Source: Myxococcales bacterium
GTDB lineage: Bacteria > Myxococcota_A > Polyangia > Polyangiales > Houyiibacteriaceae
DNA length: 46,160 nucleotides
Reading direction: 5' to 3'
Assembly: GCA_024640845.1 (NCBI GenBank)
Contig: JAHEEE010000028.1
Location: 1-46,160 of the forward strand
The notes under the pieces: generated by a model
Seen by the model: only the letters and a program-made list of their open reading frames with translations
The model's database searches: none
What the model was told of the DNA's origin: nothing
Shown here: positions 20,414-37,938 of the stretch, in pieces
How the letters are laid out: the number at the start of each line of letters is the position of its first letter
How positions within the stretch are numbered: position 1 is the stretch's first letter
Position numbers and translations under genes: made by a program

Positions 20414-21832
20414 ATGACGAACGACAAACAAACAGGATGGGGCGGTGCCTCCGACGCCGAGCTTGCGCCCCTCATGCGCCTGGTCGATCTGATCTTAATC
20501 TACGTCGCGCTGTGGTTGCCGATCTATGCGCGGGGGCAGGTCTGGGACCAGAAGGCCTGGGTCGCGGCGACGATCGCGGCGGTTCTTTTCCTCGTCATTG
20601 GTCAGTCGCTCAGCGTGTATCAAAGTGCGCGCGGTGCGCGCCTTCGCGCACAGCTCCTGCGCATCTGGTGGGGTTGGATCGCCGGTGTCGTGCCCGTGCT
20701 CCTGTTCCTTCTGTTCTTGTCCAAACGATCCGAGGATTACTCTCGGATCATCGTCTCGTCGTGGTTCTTGATCGCGCCGTTTCTGATCTCGATGTGGCGG
20801 ACGGGCGCGACGCTGCTCCTTCGGGAGCTCCGCGCCCGAGGGTACAACACGCGGGCGGCCGCGATCGTTGGGATGACCGAGCTCGGTGAACAGCTCGCCA
20901 TGCAGATGAAGTCGGTGCCGTCGCTCGGGCTTCGCACATATGGCTTCTACGACGATCGAGACGAAGAGCGCTGTCATCCCATCTCTCCTGAGCTCGGTAC
21001 ACGCGCCGGCACGCTTAGTGATCTGGTGGAGGCGGCCAAGACAGGCGAGGTCGACCTCATCTACATCGCTTTCCCACTCCGCGCCGAGCCGCGGATCAAC
21101 GAGCTCCTGCGGCAGCTGTCCGACACGACTGCCTCGGTGTATCTCGCAGCCGATTTCTTCGTTTTCGATCTGCTTCATACGCGCTGGGTAACCTTGGGTG
21201 GTGTACCGACGATGAGCCTCCATGAGACGCCCTTCTACGGCGTCGACGGATGGCTGAAGCGCCTCGAGGACATCGTGGTCGCCAGCGCGATTCTCATGGT
21301 GATCGCCATTCCCATGCTCATCATCGGCGTGTGCGTGAAGCTCACCTCACCCGGTCCCGCGTTGTTCAGGCAGCGCCGCTATGGCCTCAACGGCGAAGTC
21401 ATCGACGTGCTCAAGTTTCGAACCATGACGGTCACCGAAGACGGTGACGAGATCAAACAAGCGACCAAGAATGACCCGCGAATAACGAATTTCGGCGCGT
21501 TCCTACGACGCACCAACCTCGACGAGTTGCCGCAATTCTTCAACGTGCTCGGCGGCAGCATGAGCATCGTCGGTCCGCGACCGCACGCCGTCGCTCACAA
21601 CGAGCTCTATCGCAAGAAGGTGCGGGGCTACATGCTCCGTCACAAGGTCAAGCCGGGTATCACTGGCTGGGCGCAGGTGAATGGCTGGCGCGGCGAGACG
21701 GATACGCTAGAAAAAATGGAGAAGCGGGTCGAGCACGATCTCGACTACATTCGTAATTGGAGCTTGCTGTGGGATCTGCAGATCATCTTGATGACCGTCT
21801 TCGGATCTCGGGCGTGGCGGAATGCGTATTGA
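20414..21832 (+). CDS. Undecaprenyl-phosphate sugar-1-phosphate transferase (WcaJ/WbaP type)
   Basis: A 472-aa polyisoprenyl-phosphate hexose-1-phosphate transferase that puts the first sugar on the lipid carrier for exopolysaccharide, capsule or O-antigen synthesis in the inner membrane. Four N-terminal TM helices (from IYVALWLPIYARG to IAPFLISMW) are followed by a Rossmann-like middle region (AAAIVGMTELGEQLAMQM). A membrane re-entrant segment (IVVASAILMVIAIPMLIIG) leads into the catalytic domain. Catalytic signatures are SPGPALFRQRRYGLNGE, DVLKFRTM, RRTNLDELPQFFNVLGGSMS, IVGPRPHAVAHNE, KPGITGWAQVNGWRGET and the C-terminal DLDYIRNWSLLWDLQIIL. Its stop abuts the Wzz-like gene. No glycosyltransferase genes follow directly. 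Confidence 0.94.
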   Translation: MTNDKQTGWGGASDAELAPLMRLVDLILIYVALWLPIYARGQVWDQKAWVAATIAAVLFLVIGQSLSVYQSARGARLRAQLLRIWWGWIAGVVPVLLFLLFLSKRSEDYSRIIVSSWFLIAPFLISMWRTGATLLLRELRARGYNTRAAAIVGMTELGEQLAMQMKSVPSLGLRTYGFYDDRDEERCHPISPELGTRAGTLSDLVEAAKTGEVDLIYIAFPLRAEPRINELLRQLSDTTASVYLAADFFVFDLLHTRWVTLGGVPTMSLHETPFYGVDGWLKRLEDIVVASAILMVIAIPMLIIGVCVKLTSPGPALFRQRRYGLNGEVIDVLKFRTMTVTEDGDEIKQATKNDPRITNFGAFLRRTNLDELPQFFNVLGGSMSIVGPRPHAVAHNELYRKKVRGYMLRHKVKPGITGWAQVNGWRGETDTLEKMEKRVEHDLDYIRNWSLLWDLQIILMTVFGSRAWRNAY

Positions 21833-21836
21833 ATGC

Positions 21837-21843
21837 GAGGAGG
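21837..21843 (+). promoter_or_regulatory. Strong Shine-Dalgarno GAGGAGG choosing the wzz-like TTG start
   Basis: GAGGAGG lies 7 nt before TTG 21851 and downstream of the alternative ATG at 21833. It therefore favours initiation at TTG, 18 nt after the stop of the WcaJ-type gene. Confidence 0.6.
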
Positions 21844-21850
21844 CCGAACC

Positions 21851-26141
<4,291 letters not shown>

Positions 26142-26213: not shown

Positions 26214-27650
26214 TCAAGGCTTGTACTTGATCGTCAAATCGATCATCTGCTCTTGTCGGCCCGTGTACGGCGGATAGAAGATGTGAAGCAGCGAGAACCA
26301 CGGGTTGACGTGAATCGGCCGCATCTTGCTGAATTCCACGAAGCCCTCATAGCCATGGTAGTGGCCCATACCGCTCGCGCCGCTGCCGCCGAAAGGCAGG
26401 TCGTGCTGCGCGACGTGCATGATGCAGTTGTTGATGGTGACCCCGCCCGAGATCGTGTTGTAGATGAGCTTGTCCTGCTTGGCTCTGTCCTTGCTGAATA
26501 CGTAGAAACCGAGCGGACGGTCGCGGTTCGTGATGTAGTCGATTACCTCGTCGAGATCGTCGTAAGCCATCACAGGATAAAGCGGACCGAAGATCTCTTC
26601 CTGCATGATCATCATGTCGTCTGTGACATCGAGCACCAGATGAGGCGGGAGCTTGCGCATGACGTCGTTGAACGATGAATCCGGCACGAGCGGCACGATG
26701 GTAGCCCCCTTGGCCTCAGCGTCGTCGAGGGTCATCCGTAGGCGTCGATAAGACTTCTCGTCGATGATCGACGTGTACGACGGGTCGTTCGTGTCGGGGT
26801 AGCGCTCAGGCACGAGCTTCTTCGCGGCTTCCACGAACTGGTGGAGCTTGCTCGTGGGAACGAAAAGATAATCCGGTGCGAGGCAAGTCTGGCCTGCGTT
26901 GATGAGCTTCGAGTACATGATCCGCGACGCGGCCTCCTCGATGTCGAAGTCGTCGCAGATGATCGTCGGAGACTTTCCGCCGAGCTCGAGGGTGACCGGT
27001 GTCAGGTTTTCGGCCGCCGAACGCATGACCGTGCGGCCGACGTCCGCCGAGCCTGTGAAACACATGTGATCAAACGGAAGGGTGCTGAAATCGCTGGCCC
27101 GCACGCCGGGGAGAATTGCCACCGTGTCTTCGTCGTACGCCTCGCTGAACTTGTCGGCCAGAAGCCGCGCGAGGTTCTGTGAGTTCGCTGCCATCTTGAT
27201 CATGGCGCGATTTCCGGCCGCGAGAGTGCTCGTCAGCGGGCCCATCGACAGGAAGAGGGGGTAATTCCAAGGCGAAACGATGCCGACGACACCCTTTGGC
27301 TGCGGCAGGACGCGGTTGTGACCGGTCGCAAACAGCACCGACACGTGCCGTTTCTGCGGCTTCATCCATTTTCTGAGCCTCTTCTTGGTGTCGCGGATGC
27401 CATCGACGATCGGAAAGATCTCCAGGATCTTCGATTCCTCCGCGCAACGGTGGCCGAAGTCTTTCTGGATCGCTTCGACGATCGCCTCGATGTTGTCGAC
27501 GAGGATTCGTTCGAGGGCGGTCAGGCGCTTCTTGCGCTCGTCGAGGCTCGGGTAGGGGTCGCGAAGGTAAGCCTCTTGCTGAAGCTGAAAGACGCGCTGC
27601 GCTTCGTTCTCGACGAGCTCGATGCGGCGGAGTTGTGCTGTCTGGGCCAT
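26214..27650 (-). CDS. Aldehyde dehydrogenase (coniferyl-aldehyde dehydrogenase-like)
   Basis: A 478-aa NAD(P)-dependent aldehyde dehydrogenase. The general-base Glu222 lies in VTLELGGKSP, the nucleophile Cys256 in NAGQTCLAPDY, and GIVSPWNYPLFLSMGPLTST plus FTGSADVGRTV form the cofactor site. Features such as KKRLRKWMKPQKRHV, the APDY after the Cys, and the C-terminal HDLPFGGSGASGMGHYHG are typical of the coniferyl-aldehyde dehydrogenase/class-3 fatty ALDH branch, often found with aromatic or long-chain aldehyde metabolism. The start at 27650 precedes the conserved part; upstream codons lack features. It converges on icd and diverges from the membrane glycosyltransferase-like gene. The natural aldehyde is unknown. 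Confidence 0.92.
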   Translation of the reverse strand: MAQTAQLRRIELVENEAQRVFQLQQEAYLRDPYPSLDERKKRLTALERILVDNIEAIVEAIQKDFGHRCAEESKILEIFPIVDGIRDTKKRLRKWMKPQKRHVSVLFATGHNRVLPQPKGVVGIVSPWNYPLFLSMGPLTSTLAAGNRAMIKMAANSQNLARLLADKFSEAYDEDTVAILPGVRASDFSTLPFDHMCFTGSADVGRTVMRSAAENLTPVTLELGGKSPTIICDDFDIEEAASRIMYSKLINAGQTCLAPDYLFVPTSKLHQFVEAAKKLVPERYPDTNDPSYTSIIDEKSYRRLRMTLDDAEAKGATIVPLVPDSSFNDVMRKLPPHLVLDVTDDMMIMQEEIFGPLYPVMAYDDLDEVIDYITNRDRPLGFYVFSKDRAKQDKLIYNTISGGVTINNCIMHVAQHDLPFGGSGASGMGHYHGYEGFVEFSKMRPIHVNPWFSLLHIFYPPYTGRQEQMIDLTIKYKP

Positions 27651-27784
27651 AGCCCGCTTATGTAACGCTACCGCGGCGCCCGTCGCAACCCCACCGCCCG
27701 ATGCGCTCGTATCCGGTCCTGGGCTCTCGGCCAATCGCGCGAGAATTCCCAACGAAAGAGCCGATCCCGCGGATCGAAGGAAAT

Positions 27785-29449
27785 ATGACCCGACTTTTGC
27801 CGCAGCTATACTCGGCGACTGGGTCGGTGAGCACGAAGGTCCAAAGCGCGCAACGAGCCGAGCTATCGGCCGAGCACACCTCGCTGCTGGTCCTTTTGGC
27901 AGCGTGCGCGGCCCACTATTGGATCTGTGTCACGCTCACTTCCGAGATCGCGCTCGACGTCGATCCGATCAACCTGCTCTACGGGATGCGCGAGTTCAAC
28001 ATTGCGCACCATGCCCCCCACCCGCCTGGGTACCTGGTTTACGTATGGCTGTTGAGGGGCCTTCACGCGGTCGTGGGCGGCGATTCATTCGGCACGGTTC
28101 AACTTCTGGCGCGCTTGATGTCGACCGCGACGATTCCGCTCGTGTATCTAGCGGTCCGGCTCATGCGTCCAGCCGACGCCTTCGCCGCCGGGTTCGCGGC
28201 GATTCTCACGGCATTTCATCCGTTTCTCATCTACCATGGTGTCGACGCGCAGACGCATACATCGGAAGCGTTTGCTGCTGCCCTGCTTCTGGTCACGGTC
28301 GTAGCGTACCGGCGAGCTCCGTCCCCCCGATTGGGTGCTGCGATGGGAGCCGTGCTGGCGCTCGGGAGCGCTTTTCGACCGAGCTTCATCATCGCGGGGA
28401 TCGGACCCATCATCTGGGCGGTCGGATTCCGACGCTTGTTTCACCTCTGCGTCGCAGGCGCGGTGAGCGTCATCGGAGCGCTCGCCTGGGTCATCCCGAC
28501 CTTGAAAGCGAGCGGTGGCTGGGCCCGGTGGCGAGCCGCGCATGATGCCCTCGTCGGGCAGACTTTCATGCGGACCAGCAGCCCATTTAGCGATGAGGCG
28601 ATCACGGAGTTCGTCCGGTACAGCATGCTGAGCACGGCGTTTTGGTTGCTGCTCGCCCTCGCGCCTGCGATCGTAGCGATTGCGGCACGCGGCGGAAGAC
28701 AGAATCCTCGGGACGCGGCATACAAAGAGGCGCGCGCAATCGCGTTTTGGAGTGCGGCCCCAGCGGCGGTCTTCTACCTCGGCATGTTCTGCTCGGAGCC
28801 GGGGTACCTGCTCGGCTTCATTCCCATGGTCATTGCGCTGACGGCCCTCGTGGAAGCGCCCGAGCCGTCGCGCATCAGGCGACGCCTCCCGCTCGCGCTG
28901 GCGGCCGTGACTCAGCTCGCCATCCTCGTCATGCCGGGGACCTTCCGCCACATCGGCAAGATTCCCTCCATTCCGGAGCTCGTGCATCGCGAGATCTTGT
29001 ACCGGACCGTGTTCGAACGGATCGCTGCGCAGCTTCCCGAGGACGCTCGCATCCTCTACATCACTGACTACCCGGATGTCGTTTTGAGCCGCCAGCTTCC
29101 GGTGCTCCGTCCTTCACTTCACTCGATGATCATTCACTCCGAGGACTGGTCCGGCTTCGAGGAGACTTCTATCGGCTACGCAACGCAGGACGACTGGATC
29201 CCGATTCCCGGGCCGATCCTGCTGCAGAAGGGGCCGCCGACCATTTTGGAGCTGCCCTTTGCCTACGACTACGTCGTAATCGATCCGATTTCGAGCTCGG
29301 GTCTTCGCGACGAGTTGCGCGGGCACACGATGTGTGATGTGAGCGACGAAGACGGCGAGATTCGCGTGCTTTCGGTGGCCAAGTGTTTTCCGGACGGCAT
29401 GATCGAAGTTCACGGGCAGGGCGTGCGATTTCAGCTCCCCGATGGCTAA
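27785..29449 (+). CDS. Multi-TM GT39-like protein, paralogue A
   Basis: A 554-aa inner-membrane protein resembling lipid-dependent GT-C glycosyltransferases (PMT/ArnT-like). It has about nine to eleven TM segments, with an acidic first loop DVDPINLLYGMREFNIAHHA directly followed by PHPPGYLVYVW. The Asp pair there is where GT-C enzymes keep their catalytic acid. Other marked segments are GVDAQTHTSEAFAAALLL, ALGSAFRPSFII, TSSPFSD and SEPGYLLGFIPM. The C-terminal 150 residues are a soluble domain. GAAGGA precedes the ATG at 27785. It is clearly paralogous to the protein at 29446-31062, which it faces tail-to-tail; the stop codons overlap. It may glycosylate an envelope polymer; the substrate is unknown. 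Confidence 0.75.
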   Translation: MTRLLPQLYSATGSVSTKVQSAQRAELSAEHTSLLVLLAACAAHYWICVTLTSEIALDVDPINLLYGMREFNIAHHAPHPPGYLVYVWLLRGLHAVVGGDSFGTVQLLARLMSTATIPLVYLAVRLMRPADAFAAGFAAILTAFHPFLIYHGVDAQTHTSEAFAAALLLVTVVAYRRAPSPRLGAAMGAVLALGSAFRPSFIIAGIGPIIWAVGFRRLFHLCVAGAVSVIGALAWVIPTLKASGGWARWRAAHDALVGQTFMRTSSPFSDEAITEFVRYSMLSTAFWLLLALAPAIVAIAARGGRQNPRDAAYKEARAIAFWSAAPAAVFYLGMFCSEPGYLLGFIPMVIALTALVEAPEPSRIRRRLPLALAAVTQLAILVMPGTFRHIGKIPSIPELVHREILYRTVFERIAAQLPEDARILYITDYPDVVLSRQLPVLRPSLHSMIIHSEDWSGFEETSIGYATQDDWIPIPGPILLQKGPPTILELPFAYDYVVIDPISSSGLRDELRGHTMCDVSDEDGEIRVLSVAKCFPDGMIEVHGQGVRFQLPDG

Positions 29450-31062
29450 CGGCCCCCGCCCTCTTCGTCCCCCGCGACTTCCATTAGCCGAAGCTCGAGG
29501 CCATCGAACGCCACGCTGCCTCGCGCTAGGCAAGGTGTCGGCACGATGACCGTTTCGGTCACGTCCCGAGCGCGCCGAACTGGGCAATTCGATTGCTCAG
29601 CCATCTGCGTCTGGAAGTGAGGTGGCAGCGTACCGTCGAAATAGACCCCGGCATAGGCGTTCGTAGTCTTTCGCGAGCTCCGAGCGTCCGGAGCACCGAA
29701 GGCCTCCGGAATCGGAACCGAGTCGACCTCGGTGACATAGGTGAGCGCAGTCTGCGCAAACCAAGGTCTGCGACCGTCGTGAATGAGCAGAACGTCGACG
29801 CGCGGCTCGAGCATGGGAAGCTGTCTCCCAACGGTGATATCCGGATGGCCGATGAGAACCAGATATCGCCCGTCCGCGGGCAGCGCGCGCTCGATGTGGT
29901 CAGCATAGGCAAGCCCGAGGTCAGTGCGCTTCTTCCATTCTGCGACTGAAGGTACTTTGAGGACGTGCGGAAGGAGCGGAATCGCCCAGCAGGCTAGGGT
30001 GGCGAAGATGGCCATCGCCGCGGGCCGGGCGCCCTTGGTGCCGCCGCTCAAGGTTCCGACGACGAGGGCCACCGGCGGCAGCAAAGCCGCGAGATAGCCG
30101 GGCTCGGAGACGAATGTGACCGCATAGTATGCGATCGCTAGGCCGCCTCCGAAGAACAGCGTCCCCTTGAGCCAACGACTGCCAGGATCCGCGCCAAGGG
30201 GCGGGTCCTTTGGTGTGCGACTCGCGTAGCTGACCGCGAGCGCAACGAGGACCGGAAGCACGGCCTCGAACGTCCACAGGCCGAGCGATATCTGGTTCGC
30301 CCACACCAGCGAGTCGACCGCCGAGTCCGAGAATGGGCTCGAGGTCAGGACGAACCCATGATGCACGAGTCCGCGGGTCGCGGCGCGCCAGGCATCCCAC
30401 CCCCCAGACGCGACGACCGTTGGCATGACCCAGCCGATGGCGCCCAATATGCTCGACACTCCCGCGACCGAAAGATCGGCGAAGTGGCGCAGCCCGATCG
30501 TCCATACGATCACCGGGACCCCAAACACGATGAACGAAGGCCTGAGTGCCGAGCCAAACGCGAGGATCAGCCCCAGGGCGAGCGCTCGTTGCCATCCAGG
30601 CGCCTCTCGATAGCGAACCGCGCCCCACAGGAGCAGTGCGGATGCAAACGCTTCCGAAGTGTGCGTCTGTGCATCGACCGAGTGGAACACCATGATCGGG
30701 TGCAGCGAGATGACGAGGGCCGCCCAGCCAGCCGCCCCGTCGGGAAGCTTCATTCGCTTTGCCGTGGCGTAAACGGTCGCGACGGCAGCCAACGCGAAGA
30801 GAAGGGAAACCAACTGCACCGTGGCGAAGCGATCGACGAGTGCATCGCCGGCTCCAGTCAGGGCGTGAACGGCGCGGAGGGTCCAGACGTAGACCAGGTA
30901 CCCGGGGGGATGCGGGTTGAAGTGCGTGATGTCGAACCGATCCATGCCATAGGCCAGATTCATCGGGTCGGGGTCGAGCGCGACCGCCCCGACGCCGAGC
31001 CACCACGCAAGCAGATGCGCAGTAATTGCCGCCCCGAGCAATCCACGATTCACCGAAGCCAT
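29446..31062 (-). CDS. Multi-TM GT39-like protein, paralogue B
   Basis: A 538-aa integral membrane protein with the same plan and many of the same motifs as the convergent gene at 27785: DPDPMNLAYGMDRFDITHFN then PHPPGYLVYVW, SVDAQTHTSEAFASALLL, GSALRPSFIVFG, TSSPFSD and SEPGYLAALLPPVAL. The acidic first loop suits a GT-C-type glycosyltransferase using a lipid-phosphate donor. The C-terminal soluble part has ALPADGRYLVLIGHPDITVG followed by RQLPMLEPRVDVLLIHD, matching the paralogue's ARILYITDYPDVVLSRQLPV. Its TAG stop overlaps the other gene's TAA stop in CTAA at 29446-29449. AGGA lies about 8 nt before the ATG. It diverges from the GH3 gene over 173 bp. Confidence 0.75.
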   Translation of the reverse strand: MASVNRGLLGAAITAHLLAWWLGVGAVALDPDPMNLAYGMDRFDITHFNPHPPGYLVYVWTLRAVHALTGAGDALVDRFATVQLVSLLFALAAVATVYATAKRMKLPDGAAGWAALVISLHPIMVFHSVDAQTHTSEAFASALLLWGAVRYREAPGWQRALALGLILAFGSALRPSFIVFGVPVIVWTIGLRHFADLSVAGVSSILGAIGWVMPTVVASGGWDAWRAATRGLVHHGFVLTSSPFSDSAVDSLVWANQISLGLWTFEAVLPVLVALAVSYASRTPKDPPLGADPGSRWLKGTLFFGGGLAIAYYAVTFVSEPGYLAALLPPVALVVGTLSGGTKGARPAAMAIFATLACWAIPLLPHVLKVPSVAEWKKRTDLGLAYADHIERALPADGRYLVLIGHPDITVGRQLPMLEPRVDVLLIHDGRRPWFAQTALTYVTEVDSVPIPEAFGAPDARSSRKTTNAYAGVYFDGTLPPHFQTQMAEQSNCPVRRARDVTETVIVPTPCLARGSVAFDGLELRLMEVAGDEEGGGR

Positions 31063-31235
31063 GGAGCGATCCTAGCTGGAACGTCCGTCGTTGGTCGCAT
31101 TCGCGCTCGAGGAGACGCGATCCCGCATGGCATCGTAGGCTGCGCCCTGGAAGCCCTGAGCTTGGCGATGGGCTGTTCCAATCCACCTGAGCCTCGGGCT
31201 TCACAAAAGCGCCAAATCGGCTAGCTTTCGGCCCC

Positions 31236-33299
31236 ATGACACTTCGAAAGCTTAGCCTGGTCTGGATTGTTCTCGCGGCGGCGTGCAGCAGCAATGATAG
31301 TCCCGACCTCGAATCGCAGGTCGCCGAGCTCGTCTCGCAGATGACGCTCGAAGAGAAGGTCGCGCAGATGGCGGGTACGACGCCGCTTCAGGGCGCGTAC
31401 GGGAGCGAGCTCTGGAACGTACCCGGTGTCGAGCGACTTGGCGTGCCTCCGTTCAAGATGTCCGATGGACCGCGTGGGGTCGGCGTTGGCGATGGTCGAA
31501 CCGCGTTTCCAGTCGCGATGGCGCGCGCCGCCAGCTGGGATCCGGATCTCGAGCGCCGCGTCGGCGAAGCGATGGGTCGCGAGCTTCGGGCGATCGGGGG
31601 CAACGTGCTCCTGGCTCCCGCGATCAACAACCTCCGGCACCCGAGTTGGGGGCGCTCCCAAGAGACCTACGGCGAAGACGTGCATCTCCTTTCGAGGATG
31701 GGCGTTGCCGCCGTGCAAGGGATTCAGCGCTACGTTCTCGCCAACCCGAAGCACTATGCCGTCAACAGCATCGAGAACACGCGTTTCGAGGTCAACGTCA
31801 CGGTCGACGAACGGACGCTCCGCGAGATCTACTTGGCGCATTTCCGCGCTGCCGTGGATGAAGGCGGCGCAGCGTCGATCATGAGCGCGTATAACTCCGT
31901 CAACGGTCAGTTCTGCGGGGAAAACGTGACCCTTCTTCGCCGAATCCTCAAAGAAGAGTGGGGGTTCGATGGGTTCGTCCTCTCGGATTTCGTGTTCGGG
32001 ACGCATGACGACTCCGCCGTGAACGGGCTCGACATCGAGATGCCCTTGGCCAACAAATTCAAGGGGCTTCTCGACCAAGTGCGCTCCGGCGCCGTGCCTG
32101 AAGAGGTGGTCGACGAAGCCGTGCGGCGAATGGTTCGAAAGAAGCTGCAATATGGGCTCGATCAACCGAGCCCGGTGGACGAAAGCGTGGTCGAAAGCGA
32201 CGAGCATTTGTCGGTGGCCCGAGAAGCGGCCGCCGAAGGCGCCGTGCTGCTCAAGAACACCGGCGGCGCATTGCCCCTCGATCCAAGCGAGGTGGCACGG
32301 ATTGCCGTCGTTGGGCTGCTCGCAGACGAGGCCAACATCGGCGACACCGGAAGCAGCAGCGTGCGTCCGTCGTTCGTGGTCACCCCGCTTCAGGGCATCC
32401 GAGAAGCGCTCGGCGATTCTGTCGCGATCGACCACATCGATAAGAACGTTCTCGACCCGCAGGATCTCGCGACCATCGAGGCCGCCGACGCGGTGATCAT
32501 CGTCACGGGACTCACGGCGGAGGACGAGAGCGAGGGCCTGCTCGGTCCCGGGGACCGGGTCGACCTCGGCCTCGGGCCCCAGCGTACACAGTTGATCCTC
32601 GATGCGGCGGGGGCCAGCGAGCGCGCTGTCGTCGTCCTCGAAGGAGGGGGAGCCATTACGATGGGAGACTGGCTTCCGGAGATCGAGGCGCTCCTCATGG
32701 TTTGGTACCCGGGTCAGATGGGTGGTCACGCCATCGCGGACCTACTGTTTGGCGACGTGAATCCTTCCGGCAAGCTTCCGCTCACCATTCCAACCGATCT
32801 CGATCAGCTACCCCCCTTCGACAACACCTCGCTCGAGGTCACCTACGACTACTTCCACGGGTACCGCTACCTCGACCGAAACGGCGATACGCCGGAGCTC
32901 GAGTTCGGGTTCGGGCTGAGCTACACCACGTTCTCCATCGACAATCTCCGCATGGATCGCGCCGAAGCTGGCCCAGGGGACACGGTCACGTTCACTGTCG
33001 ATGTCACCAACACCGGTGTCGTCGCCGGGGCCGAAGTCGTGCAACTCTACGTCACGTATCCCGACTCCGCGGTCGAGCGAGCCGAGCGGGAGCTCAAAGG
33101 CTTCACGAAGGTGGAGCTCGAGCCCGGCGAGACACGCGCGGTCGACATCAGCGTTCCGGTGAATAGCCTTGCGTATTACGACGTGTCGCAATCGGCGTGG
33201 GCGCTCGAAGACCTCGAACACGCAGTGCAGGTCGGCGTCTCGTCGCGCGACCTGCCCCTGTCGACGACACTGAGGGTCACTGGGAGCCCCGCACTGTGA
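31236..33299 (+). CDS. Glycoside hydrolase family 3 lipoprotein (beta-glucosidase-like)
   Basis: A 687-aa GH3 enzyme that probably removes beta-linked sugars from oligosaccharides in the periplasm. The lipobox LAAAC (Cys17) marks it as a lipoprotein. Domain 1 has MSDGPRGVGVGDGRTAFPVA, NVLLAPAINNLRHPSWGRSQ (running into ETYGED), PKHYAVNSIENTR, AASIMSAYNSVNGQFCGEN, and the nucleophile Asp251 in GFVLSDF. Domain 2 has AAAEGAVLLKNTGGALPLDP and VWYPGQMGGHAIADLLFGDV, then NPSGKLPLTIP. The C-terminal fibronectin-III-like domain includes FGFGLSYTTF and GAEVVQLYV. Its stop overlaps the next gene's start (GTGA), so it is translated together with the alpha/beta-hydrolase lipoprotein. No strong Shine-Dalgarno is visible. 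Confidence 0.94.
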   Translation: MTLRKLSLVWIVLAAACSSNDSPDLESQVAELVSQMTLEEKVAQMAGTTPLQGAYGSELWNVPGVERLGVPPFKMSDGPRGVGVGDGRTAFPVAMARAASWDPDLERRVGEAMGRELRAIGGNVLLAPAINNLRHPSWGRSQETYGEDVHLLSRMGVAAVQGIQRYVLANPKHYAVNSIENTRFEVNVTVDERTLREIYLAHFRAAVDEGGAASIMSAYNSVNGQFCGENVTLLRRILKEEWGFDGFVLSDFVFGTHDDSAVNGLDIEMPLANKFKGLLDQVRSGAVPEEVVDEAVRRMVRKKLQYGLDQPSPVDESVVESDEHLSVAREAAAEGAVLLKNTGGALPLDPSEVARIAVVGLLADEANIGDTGSSSVRPSFVVTPLQGIREALGDSVAIDHIDKNVLDPQDLATIEAADAVIIVTGLTAEDESEGLLGPGDRVDLGLGPQRTQLILDAAGASERAVVVLEGGGAITMGDWLPEIEALLMVWYPGQMGGHAIADLLFGDVNPSGKLPLTIPTDLDQLPPFDNTSLEVTYDYFHGYRYLDRNGDTPELEFGFGLSYTTFSIDNLRMDRAEAGPGDTVTFTVDVTNTGVVAGAEVVQLYVTYPDSAVERAERELKGFTKVELEPGETRAVDISVPVNSLAYYDVSQSAWALEDLEHAVQVGVSSRDLPLSTTLRVTGSPAL

Positions 33300-35253: not shown

Positions 35254-35976
35254 TCACGATTTGCGGAGGACCATCACCAAGAACCCGCCGAAGTATCGCC
35301 ACGGCGAGCGACTCGCGAGTCGCTCGGCTCTTCGAAGGCTCGGCCCGAGCCACGGGGCGCGGTGAACGGCGGCGAAGGGCGTGAGCACGCGAAGGCCATA
35401 CACGTCGACCAGCTCGGCTTCCACAGGTATCAGCGAACGCAGCGTGCGGGGGGAGTCCCAGCGCGTGAAGACGTCGGCTTCCGTGCGAGAATCGCTGATC
35501 TTTCGGGGCCAAGCGGCTCGTTTCGCGAGGTAGCGAAGGCTCCAGGGGTTGTAGAGCTCGAGCAGCAGGTGCCCGCCCGGGCGTGTCACGCGCGCGGCCT
35601 CTTGGATGGCTGTCTGCAAGTCCTCGACGTGGGCCAAGACCTTGAAGCTGCAGACGAGATCGAATGCATCGTCGTCGAAGGGGAGCGCGCATAGGTCGCC
35701 GATTCGCACGTCGAGGCCGCGCGCTCGGGCCCTTTCCGCCATGCCCTCCGAGATGTCGACGCCGATCGCCTCCTTTGCGACCTCGGACAGTCGCGTCAGA
35801 ATGCGTCCCGTCCCGCACCCGAGCTCGAGAATCCGAGCCTCGCGCGCGTAAGGCGTCGCGATCTCGATCTCGAGGTCGTCGATCATCTGGTGGTACGGTG
35901 ACTCCCGACCGCGGTCGTACGAGCCGCTGAAGTCGTCGTAGTAGGCGCGAAGGTCGCGATGGGGGTCAGTGGGCAT
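35254..35976 (-). CDS. SAM-dependent methyltransferase (class I, Methyltransf_11)
   Basis: A 240-aa class I methyltransferase. SAM motif I is ILELGCGTGRIL, motif II acidic residue is in AIGVDISEGMAERARARG, GDLCALPFDDDAFDLVCSFK is the adenine/post-II region, and VTRPGGHLLLELYNP is motif III. The family includes small-molecule and sugar O-methyltransferases. The start at 35976 overlaps the end of the GT4 gene by 11 bp, so the two are coupled, and the sensor-like gene follows 68 bp downstream. Given the glycosyltransferase neighbours, a glycan or lipid-linked sugar may be methylated; this is inference. Confidence 0.9.
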   Translation of the reverse strand: MPTDPHRDLRAYYDDFSGSYDRGRESPYHQMIDDLEIEIATPYAREARILELGCGTGRILTRLSEVAKEAIGVDISEGMAERARARGLDVRIGDLCALPFDDDAFDLVCSFKVLAHVEDLQTAIQEAARVTRPGGHLLLELYNPWSLRYLAKRAAWPRKISDSRTEADVFTRWDSPRTLRSLIPVEAELVDVYGLRVLTPFAAVHRAPWLGPSLRRAERLASRSPWRYFGGFLVMVLRKS

Positions 35977-37033
35977 GAAGCGCCTCGTACAACCCCTCGT
36001 ACTCCGCCGCCACCTTGGCTGGCGAGAACCGCCGAAGCACCAGCACCCGCGCCTCTCGTCCAAGCGCCTCCCGCGTTTGGTCGTCCCCGCTCAACGCTTC
36101 AATGGCGGCTGCAAGTGCACCCCCGGAGGGCTCCACCGCAACCGCGGCGCCATCCTCGGCGAGCTCTTCGGCGGGCGTCCCTTTTCCAACCAGCACCGGA
36201 CGGCCCATGCACATCGCTTCGAGGGCGACGAGGGGATAGTCCATCTTGGCGTAGGGTGAACGGTTCGGGAGCACCGTGAAGTCGCTGAGGGCGAGCAGCT
36301 CGTGAATGTCCGGCGTATCGCCCAGCCAACGAAGGCGCGTGTCGATACCCCAACGCCTTGCCTGGTCGATGAGCGCGGCACGCGCGGGACCGGACGCGCT
36401 CGTCTTGTCGCGGCATGCCATCAACAGCAATACATCGCGGCGGCCGTAGGCCGCCAACCCCTCGAGCGCGACTTTCGCGCCGCCGCCGTGCTCGAGGTCG
36501 CCCGGGTAGATCCAGATTTCGGCGGATTCGGGTACCCCGTGTTTCTCTCGAAACTCGCCGCGGTCCGCCGCGCTTGGCTCGGGCAGAGGCGGCAGCGACG
36601 GAGGGATGAGCCGAAGGGATGCGTCGGACGCGCCCGAAGCTTGAAACCGATCGTGCGCGAGACGGGACAGCACCACCGTGACGTCCGCGAACACGAGCTT
36701 GTCGAGCGCTGCCCCTTCTTTCGGGAGGCTGCACACCGTGTGAACCGTGGGCACGCGTCGAACCGCAGCCGCGAACCGGGCCGCTCGGGAGCTCTTGCGG
36801 TTGGGCGCGAAGAAGAAATGCCAGATGTCCGCCTTGGCGTCCCACAGCAGATGGCGCAATACGCCGGCGTTTTCTCTGAGACCGGGCGAGAACGAGGTGG
36901 CTGGCGCGTCCCGCCGCTCGATCAGAACAGGTCTGTGCCGTCCGAGGTGTCCGATGATGTCGCGGACGAGGTTCTTGCTGCTGTCGTTCCATGGCGGCGC
37001 CACGGGTTTGGACACGAAGAGAACGTCAGCCAT
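35966..37033 (-). CDS. GT4-type glycosyltransferase
   Basis: A 355-aa GT-B glycosyltransferase. The N-terminal domain (MADVLFVSKPVAPPWNDSSK; ADIWHFFFAPNRKSSRAARF) is variable. The C-terminal nucleotide-sugar domain shows EIWIYPGDLEHGGGAKVALE, RLRWLGDTPDIHELLALSDF, then TVLPNRSPYAKMDYPLVALE and AMCMGRPVLVGKGTPAEELA, which contain the EX7E-like GT4 signature. An in-frame ATG at 37066 exists, but 37033 gives a normal N-terminus. It diverges from the GT2 gene across 80 bp and is coupled to the methyltransferase (11-bp overlap). Its role in surface glycan assembly is inferred. Confidence 0.87.
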   Translation of the reverse strand: MADVLFVSKPVAPPWNDSSKNLVRDIIGHLGRHRPVLIERRDAPATSFSPGLRENAGVLRHLLWDAKADIWHFFFAPNRKSSRAARFAAAVRRVPTVHTVCSLPKEGAALDKLVFADVTVVLSRLAHDRFQASGASDASLRLIPPSLPPLPEPSAADRGEFREKHGVPESAEIWIYPGDLEHGGGAKVALEGLAAYGRRDVLLLMACRDKTSASGPARAALIDQARRWGIDTRLRWLGDTPDIHELLALSDFTVLPNRSPYAKMDYPLVALEAMCMGRPVLVGKGTPAEELAEDGAAVAVEPSGGALAAAIEALSGDDQTREALGREARVLVLRRFSPAKVAAEYEGLYEALHAH

Positions 37034-37074
37034 TGCGAATCGGGTTACGCCCCAGCCGTATGGCATGCAAGGGC

Positions 37075-37103
37075 TTGACCGCGCGCGTGCGAAACGATAG
37101 CCA
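37075..37103 (+). promoter_or_regulatory. Weak candidate promoter for the GT2 gene
   Basis: TTGACC at 37075 and TAGCCA at 37098 have an ideal 17-bp spacer, but the -10 match is poor. It lies in the 80-bp divergent gap between the GT4 and GT2 genes. Confidence 0.2.
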
Positions 37104-37113
37104 CGGCGTGCGA

Positions 37114-37938
37114 ATGCTGAAAGGCCGAACGATCGCCGCGGTGGTGCCGGCTTACAACGAGGCAGAGCTCATCGGCGCCACTCTCGAGTCGATTCCGGCG
37201 TACGTCGACGAGGTCATCGTCGTAGACGACGGGAGCACGGATTGCACGGCCCATGCAGCATGTGCGTGCTCTCGTCGCTTCGAGCTCGTCGCGCATGGTG
37301 CCAATCTCGGCGTGGGTGCCGCCATCGCGTCGGGCTGCACGCTTGCGATGGCACGAGACGCGGATGTGGCTGTCGTGCTGGCCGCTGATGGGCAAATGTC
37401 GCCCGAAGATCTGCCGAGCGTGCTCGCGCCGCTCCTCGACGACCAAGCCGACTTCGTGAAAGGCGACCGCCTCGCGTGGCCGAGAGCGATAATGCACATG
37501 CCGCTCCATCGTTTTGCCGGCAACCACGTGCTCTCGTGGCTCACGCGCCGCGCGTTGGGAACACGTGTCGCGGACTCGCAGTGCGGCTACGTCGCGCTCA
37601 ACCGTTGCGCCCTTCGGACGGTGCGCTGGGAGGGGCTCTGGAAGGGCTACGGCTATCCAAACGACTTGCTCTCGGAGATCGTCGGACAAGGCCTTCGCAT
37701 GACAGAAGTCCCGGTGCGCCCCGTGTATGGCGAGGAGCGAAGTGGCATTCGCCTTTGGCACGCGCTGCTGATGATCCCCTTCCTGATCGCGCGCGCATGG
37801 CTCCGCCGGTCGAGGTGGGGTGCTATAGAGCGACCATGGCCGACATCGACATCTTCAACGGTGATGCAGACGGCATCTGCGCGCTTACCCAGCTCCGCAA
37901 CGCCGACCCACGACGAGGCACCCTCATCACAGGCGTGA
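37114..37938 (+). CDS. GT2-family glycosyltransferase (DPM1-like)
   Basis: A 274-aa GT-A enzyme like dolichyl/undecaprenyl-phosphate sugar synthases. Visible motifs are VVPAYNEAELIGATLESIPA, EVIVVDDGSTDCTA (UDP-binding Asp pair), VVLAADGQMSPEDLP (DxD-like), ADFVKGDRLAW and RVADSQCGYVALNRCAL. A single hydrophobic segment (LWHALLMIPFLIARAWL) follows at about residues 220-236. The last 34 codons overlap the next gene by 103 bp and encode a Ser/Thr/Pro-rich tail without conserved sequence; functional sequence seems to end near SRWG. A GTG at 37108 could also start it. It may supply a lipid-linked sugar to the GT-C-like proteins upstream in the window. Confidence 0.85.
   Translation: MLKGRTIAAVVPAYNEAELIGATLESIPAYVDEVIVVDDGSTDCTAHAACACSRRFELVAHGANLGVGAAIASGCTLAMARDADVAVVLAADGQMSPEDLPSVLAPLLDDQADFVKGDRLAWPRAIMHMPLHRFAGNHVLSWLTRRALGTRVADSQCGYVALNRCALRTVRWEGLWKGYGYPNDLLSEIVGQGLRMTEVPVRPVYGEERSGIRLWHALLMIPFLIARAWLRRSRWGAIERPWPTSTSSTVMQTASARLPSSATPTHDEAPSSQA

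Follow-up and report, generated by a model that had tools for sequence, protein, structure and literature searches.

Genes A and B, two convergently transcribed genes in a metagenome-assembled Myxococcota genome, are ancient paralogues encoding GT-C-like membrane proteins, likely of the inner membrane, and we put at roughly 80% the probability that they are such paralogues, that their split predates their pairing, and that B later came between A and a neighboring glycoside hydrolase (GH3) gene. Both lie in the stretch of 46,160 nt that we analyzed (the window; its genome is G000 and related genomes are numbered likewise), and their coordinates are collected in Table 1. The initial annotation had placed the genes on opposite strands with stops overlapping in CTAA at 29446–29449, and we read the same arrangement, with TAA closing A on the forward strand and TAG closing B on the reverse strand. 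The mechanical open reading frame of A begins at 27701; we used the ATG at 27785, as had been proposed earlier, and the G014 orthologue aligns from this same methionine. Aligned by BLASTP, the two window proteins are 41% identical over 454 aa (311 bits, E 1e-103), a likeness that, as sequence, is far beyond chance, and all five motifs previously listed as common to them (PHPPGYLVYVW, VDAQTHTSEAFA, RPSFI, TSSPFSD, and SEPGYL) were found in both. This likeness is at the protein level: we detected no DNA inverted repeat of at least 20 nt between A and B, as expected of an old pair. The 4-nt stop overlap itself is of a routine kind. Four tetramers, CTAA among them, permit a 4-nt convergent overlap, and a survey of 58 prokaryotes counted 1890 convergent overlaps, 1218 of them of at least 5 nt (PMC2174442), leaving about one-third below 5 nt by our own arithmetic from Tables 2 and 3 of that study. 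Nothing relevant on tail-to-tail glycosyltransferase paralogues emerged from a search of the literature.

Table 1. Coordinates of the A/B gene pair and associated features in the window
Feature	Position	Strand	Basis or remark
Aldehyde dehydrogenase (ADH) gene, left flank	26214..27752	-	retained together with A in G009 and G014
Gene A, GT-C-like membrane glycosyltransferase, 554 aa	27785..29449	+	ATG at 27785; PF13231 PMT_2 match; predicted model
A residues 58-60, DVD; D60 candidate catalytic base at tip of JM1 helix	27956..27964	+	alignment and model
CTAA, 4-nt overlap of A and B stop codons	29446..29449		read in sequence
Gene B stop codon, TAG	29446-29448	-	
Gene B, paralogue of A, GT-C-like membrane glycosyltransferase, 538 aa	29446..31062	-	PF13231 match; predicted model
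Gene A stop codon, TAA	29447-29449	+	
Stretch without counterpart in G009: B and about 150 bp upstream	29450..31210		end coordinate approximate
B residues 30-32, DPD; D32 aligns with A D60	30967..30975	-	alignment and model
GH3 glycoside hydrolase gene, right flank	31236..33299	+	directly after A in G009
GT2 protein, candidate maker of lipid-linked sugar donor	36991..37938	+	NCBIfam best match; syntenic in G009

The description of A and B as GT-C-like membrane proteins was supported by both family profiles and predicted folds. Each narrowly passes the gathering cut-off of Pfam PF13231 PMT_2 (29.0 bits for A and 28.7 bits for B against 26.1), the match spanning the core helices and leaving the C-terminal third outside it, and an NCBIfam scan of the two proteins found no family at its cut-off. 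We built AlphaFold models of A and B from nine relatives; mean pLDDT was low (56 for A and 64 for B) because only nine sequences were alignable, and the C-terminal third was poorly modeled. In structural comparison, the best match of the A model was Pmt4 (Z 17.5, rmsd 4.7, 339 aligned residues), with OST, ALG3, AftA, ALG6, and ArnT (Z 14.7) among the further matches listed. The best match of the B model was ArnT (PDB 5ezm; Z 18.2, rmsd 4.0, 299 aligned residues), followed by Pmt4 (Z 18.1) and then OST, and its first 49 rows were all GT-C proteins or PIG-U, the first other protein, an FtsW complex, scoring Z 5.8. Both models, of modest confidence, thus show the GT-C membrane fold, including its conserved helical core and the juxtamembrane helices.

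Comparison with known enzymes showed both shared features and differences. PF13231 gathers ArnT-like and PMT-like bacterial membrane glycosyltransferases, and both predicted folds match ArnT and Pmt4; the scores of A and B barely exceed the cut-off of that family, and neither has a characterized close relative. With the aminoarabinose transferase ArnT (PDB 5ezm and 5f15), A and B share a JM1-tip aspartate and a single-chain bacterial architecture, but their identity to it is only 12–13% and the acceptor of ArnT is lipid A; neither protein matched ArnT in NCBIfam up to E 1, and the neighbor genes that we scanned include no arn genes. Unlike A and B (∼540–550 aa), the protein O-mannosyltransferases Pmt4 and Pmt1-Pmt2 are ∼700 aa long; their acceptor is a protein, and identity to A and B is 10–12%. 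B is weakly similar to the putative glycosyltransferase family NCBIfam LA3751_2_3_fam (NF047440; LA_3751/LA_3752) at 17.1 bits and E 0.0019, far below the cut-off of 200, and A had no match to this family. A search of PDB sequences with the family profile gave no match.

The first juxtamembrane helix is tipped by an acidic residue in both proteins. In the models, the aspartate pair (ALDVD in A and ALDPD in B) directly precedes this helix, which covers residues 61–70 in A and 33–39 in B. The second aspartate of the pair (A D60, B D32) is unchanged in all 19 sequences covering the site, outgroups included; the G017 B genes are truncated where their contigs end and do not extend to this N-terminal motif. 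Because an aspartate at the corresponding position has been proposed as the base in PimE, ALG6, ArnT, and PglB (PMC12041525), the invariance of D60/D32 makes both A and B look catalytically competent. We propose that D60 and D32 would act as the base and that A and B are each, most likely, an integral inner-membrane enzyme, the side of the membrane being judged by analogy. In GT-C enzymes, the sugar comes from a polyprenyl-phosphate donor and is transferred at the periplasmic face. By the same token, A and B would most likely draw their sugar from a polyprenyl-phosphate carrier and pass it to an envelope acceptor on the periplasmic side.

The initial annotation had proposed paralogy, which a placement of A and B in separate distant families would have contradicted. 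In a tree of 21 proteins, they instead form sister clades (98/98) of six and three genes, respectively, with the next relatives, from G136 and G099, outside A + B. A of G000 groups with A of five other genomes and B of G000 groups with B of G017; in the alignment, identities are 59–81% among A proteins, 67–83% among B proteins, and 32–38% between the two types. The presence of G017 genes in both clades indicates that the duplication (or, alternatively, the gain of one type from elsewhere) predates the split of G000 and G017, and on this tree the A/B split is older than their pairing in G000. We considered and rejected gene conversion between the two G000 genes: 7 of the 70 residues specific to A of G000 are shared with B of G000, against 3–10 of 41–81 for other A genes. 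There is thus no excess of private residues common to the two, and a recent duplication has not been masked in this way. As a separate observation, the two B copies of G017 (L027:6097-7383 and L028:1-1287) show near identity in roughly their first and last 200 bases but only ∼75% identity mid-gene, and residue 109 is where both contigs break. The pattern resembles gene conversion at the ends or an assembly artifact of mixed strains.

Relatives of the pair were scarce. A-type genes occur in six of the 19 genomes of the genus (G000, G001, G009, G011, G014, and G017) and B-type genes in two (one in G000 and two in G017), and the tail-to-tail pair, whose conservation the initial annotation had suggested surveying, is present in only one of the 19 genus genomes and one of the 33 family genomes. 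Searches of the family genomes (E 1e-20) found neither A nor B in its other genera, a 377-genome sample of the phylum held only distant relatives outside the genus, viral contigs had no relative, and genome contigs searched with B alone as the query gave no match. In the searches made, the A/B family thus appears almost confined to one genus of uncultured Myxococcota. Four genomes (G001, G009, G011, and G014) have A without a detected B; these assemblies are 66–92% complete, and a B gene could lie elsewhere in them, but in G009 and G014 the syntenic site itself was directly seen to lack B.

These two genomes carry the locus without B. In G009, the gene order is that of the window minus B (ADH, A, GH3, an esterase-like gene, MASE11, GT4, GT2), and the stop of A is followed within at most 20 bp by the box AAATCGGCTAGCTTTCG, which is found ahead of the GH3 start in the window as well. 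In G014, A is followed by the GH3 start across a spacer of ∼85 bp that is unrelated and holds no B; a search of this spacer for a B remnant gave only chance-level matches outside the true flanks. The true start of the window ADH is probably at MAQTAQLRR, near 27648. In G017, G011, and G001, A is instead followed by a same-strand gene of 437–438 aa. This gene (L029, L032, L033) has a Lactamase_B_3 match, of metallo-beta-lactamase fold, in both copies scanned (L029 and L032), and together with A it makes a conserved gene pair in the three genomes. In G017, with A next to this metallo-beta-lactamase-fold gene, the pair of B genes occupies other contigs, among different neighbors, one before HlyD and ABC exporter genes and the other facing a DUF924 gene that adjoins a chorismate-binding enzyme. 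G015 (L092, G015:C248, 1-10500) keeps IDH, ADH, MASE11, DHH, and P450 in window order and has an MFS transporter in the ADH-MASE11 gap, with no A, B, or GH3; the same gap holds A, GH3, and the esterase-like gene in G000 and G009, with B in G000 only. The differing contents of the gap point to an interval of variable content between conserved flanks. In the MASE11-DHH gap, G015 has a Coq4-like gene where G000 and G009 have GT4/GT2.

Most likely, then, B joined a pre-existing A in a locus of variable gene content, and in the G000 lineage it would have been placed between A and GH3 by a later rearrangement or transfer. The direction of this change depends on the gene tree. In the ADH tree, G000 and G014 are sisters (100/99), which requires one gain of B or two losses, whereas in the A tree, G014 and G009 are sisters (99/98), making gain and loss equally costly; gain of B is therefore favored, though not proven. 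Pairwise identities over the same genes (window 26214-29449 against L030 and L031) are 91% for ADH and 71% for A between G000 and G014, and 83% and 81%, respectively, between G014 and G009. That the adjacent ADH and A genes disagree on relatedness suggests recombination at the locus, and the G000 copy of A may be a replacement. Fast evolution of A after the arrival of B was considered as another explanation and rejected, the A genes of G000, G014, and G009 being equally distant from A of G017 (61.4–61.5%); A of G000 is thus not simply faster, and its replacement is possible. An IDH tree built for the species order left most forks open and was spoiled by its G014 sequence, a composite of two fragments; the G009 and G014 assemblies yielded no rpoB domain, precluding an rpoB species tree.

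An ancestral adjacent pair in an ADH-A-B-GH3 locus, with B lost in G009 and G014, would need only one loss on the A tree, where these two genomes are sisters. We nevertheless consider it unlikely, as the grouping of G000 with G014 in the ADH tree requires two losses, the junction between A and the GH3 box in G009 is tight with no trace of B, and outgroup species carry another gene after A. Far less plausible is the reading given by the initial annotation, in which the pair stems from an inverted duplication of A at this site, with divergence afterwards. The sister clades, the adjacency of the genes, and their overlapping stops agree with it, but each clade contains genes of other species, placing the split before the pair, and across species the two copies are not each other's closest relatives, as an inverted duplication in situ would have them. 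The A genes of G009 and G014 have no adjoining B, A and B of G017 lie on different contigs with unlike neighbors, the A/B DNA inverted repeat is undetected, and the pair is confined to one of the 19 genus genomes, so that duplication in situ is tenable only in a remote ancestor, with one copy moved or lost in all other genomes. The end-to-end arrangement of A and B is a local and fairly ordinary accident. Tail-to-tail paralogues need not be the product of an inverted duplication, and here relatives with an empty site separate duplication from pairing, providing a small worked case of genus-restricted GT-C paralogues in uncultured Myxococcota.

Yeast Pmt1-Pmt2 is a heterodimer with specialized subunits, and some protein O-mannosyltransferases have been solved as dimers. 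A comparable functional heterodimer of A and B would fit their resemblance to these enzymes in predicted fold and the 45 positions fixed differently in the two clades, but it is highly improbable: A is kept without a detected B in four genomes (metagenome assemblies of 66–92% completeness), which argues against an obligate heterodimer, and the genes lie on opposite strands with no common operon. We regard as a similarly long shot a facultative heteromeric pair, in which B would retune the acceptor or donor choice of the pre-existing A and adjacency in the G000 lineage would have been selected for that effect.

Other sugar-related genes lie nearby. The best NCBIfam match of the GT2 protein is polyprenyl-phospho-GalNAc synthase, at 84.6 bits and below the cut-off of 370, a hint from sequence that this gene, 6 kb from A and B, could be their donor source. 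A GT4 glycosyltransferase gene (35966-37066, reverse strand) is divergent to it, and both are also present at the G009 locus; the mechanical 5′ ends of the two overlap, and the true GT2 start is probably later than the mechanical one. Further upstream, a forward-strand gene resembling polyprenyl-phosphate sugar-1-phosphate transferases (20414-21832; Bac_transf with a CoA_binding_3 domain) is adjoined by a gene for a 658-aa protein without clear family (21833-23809).
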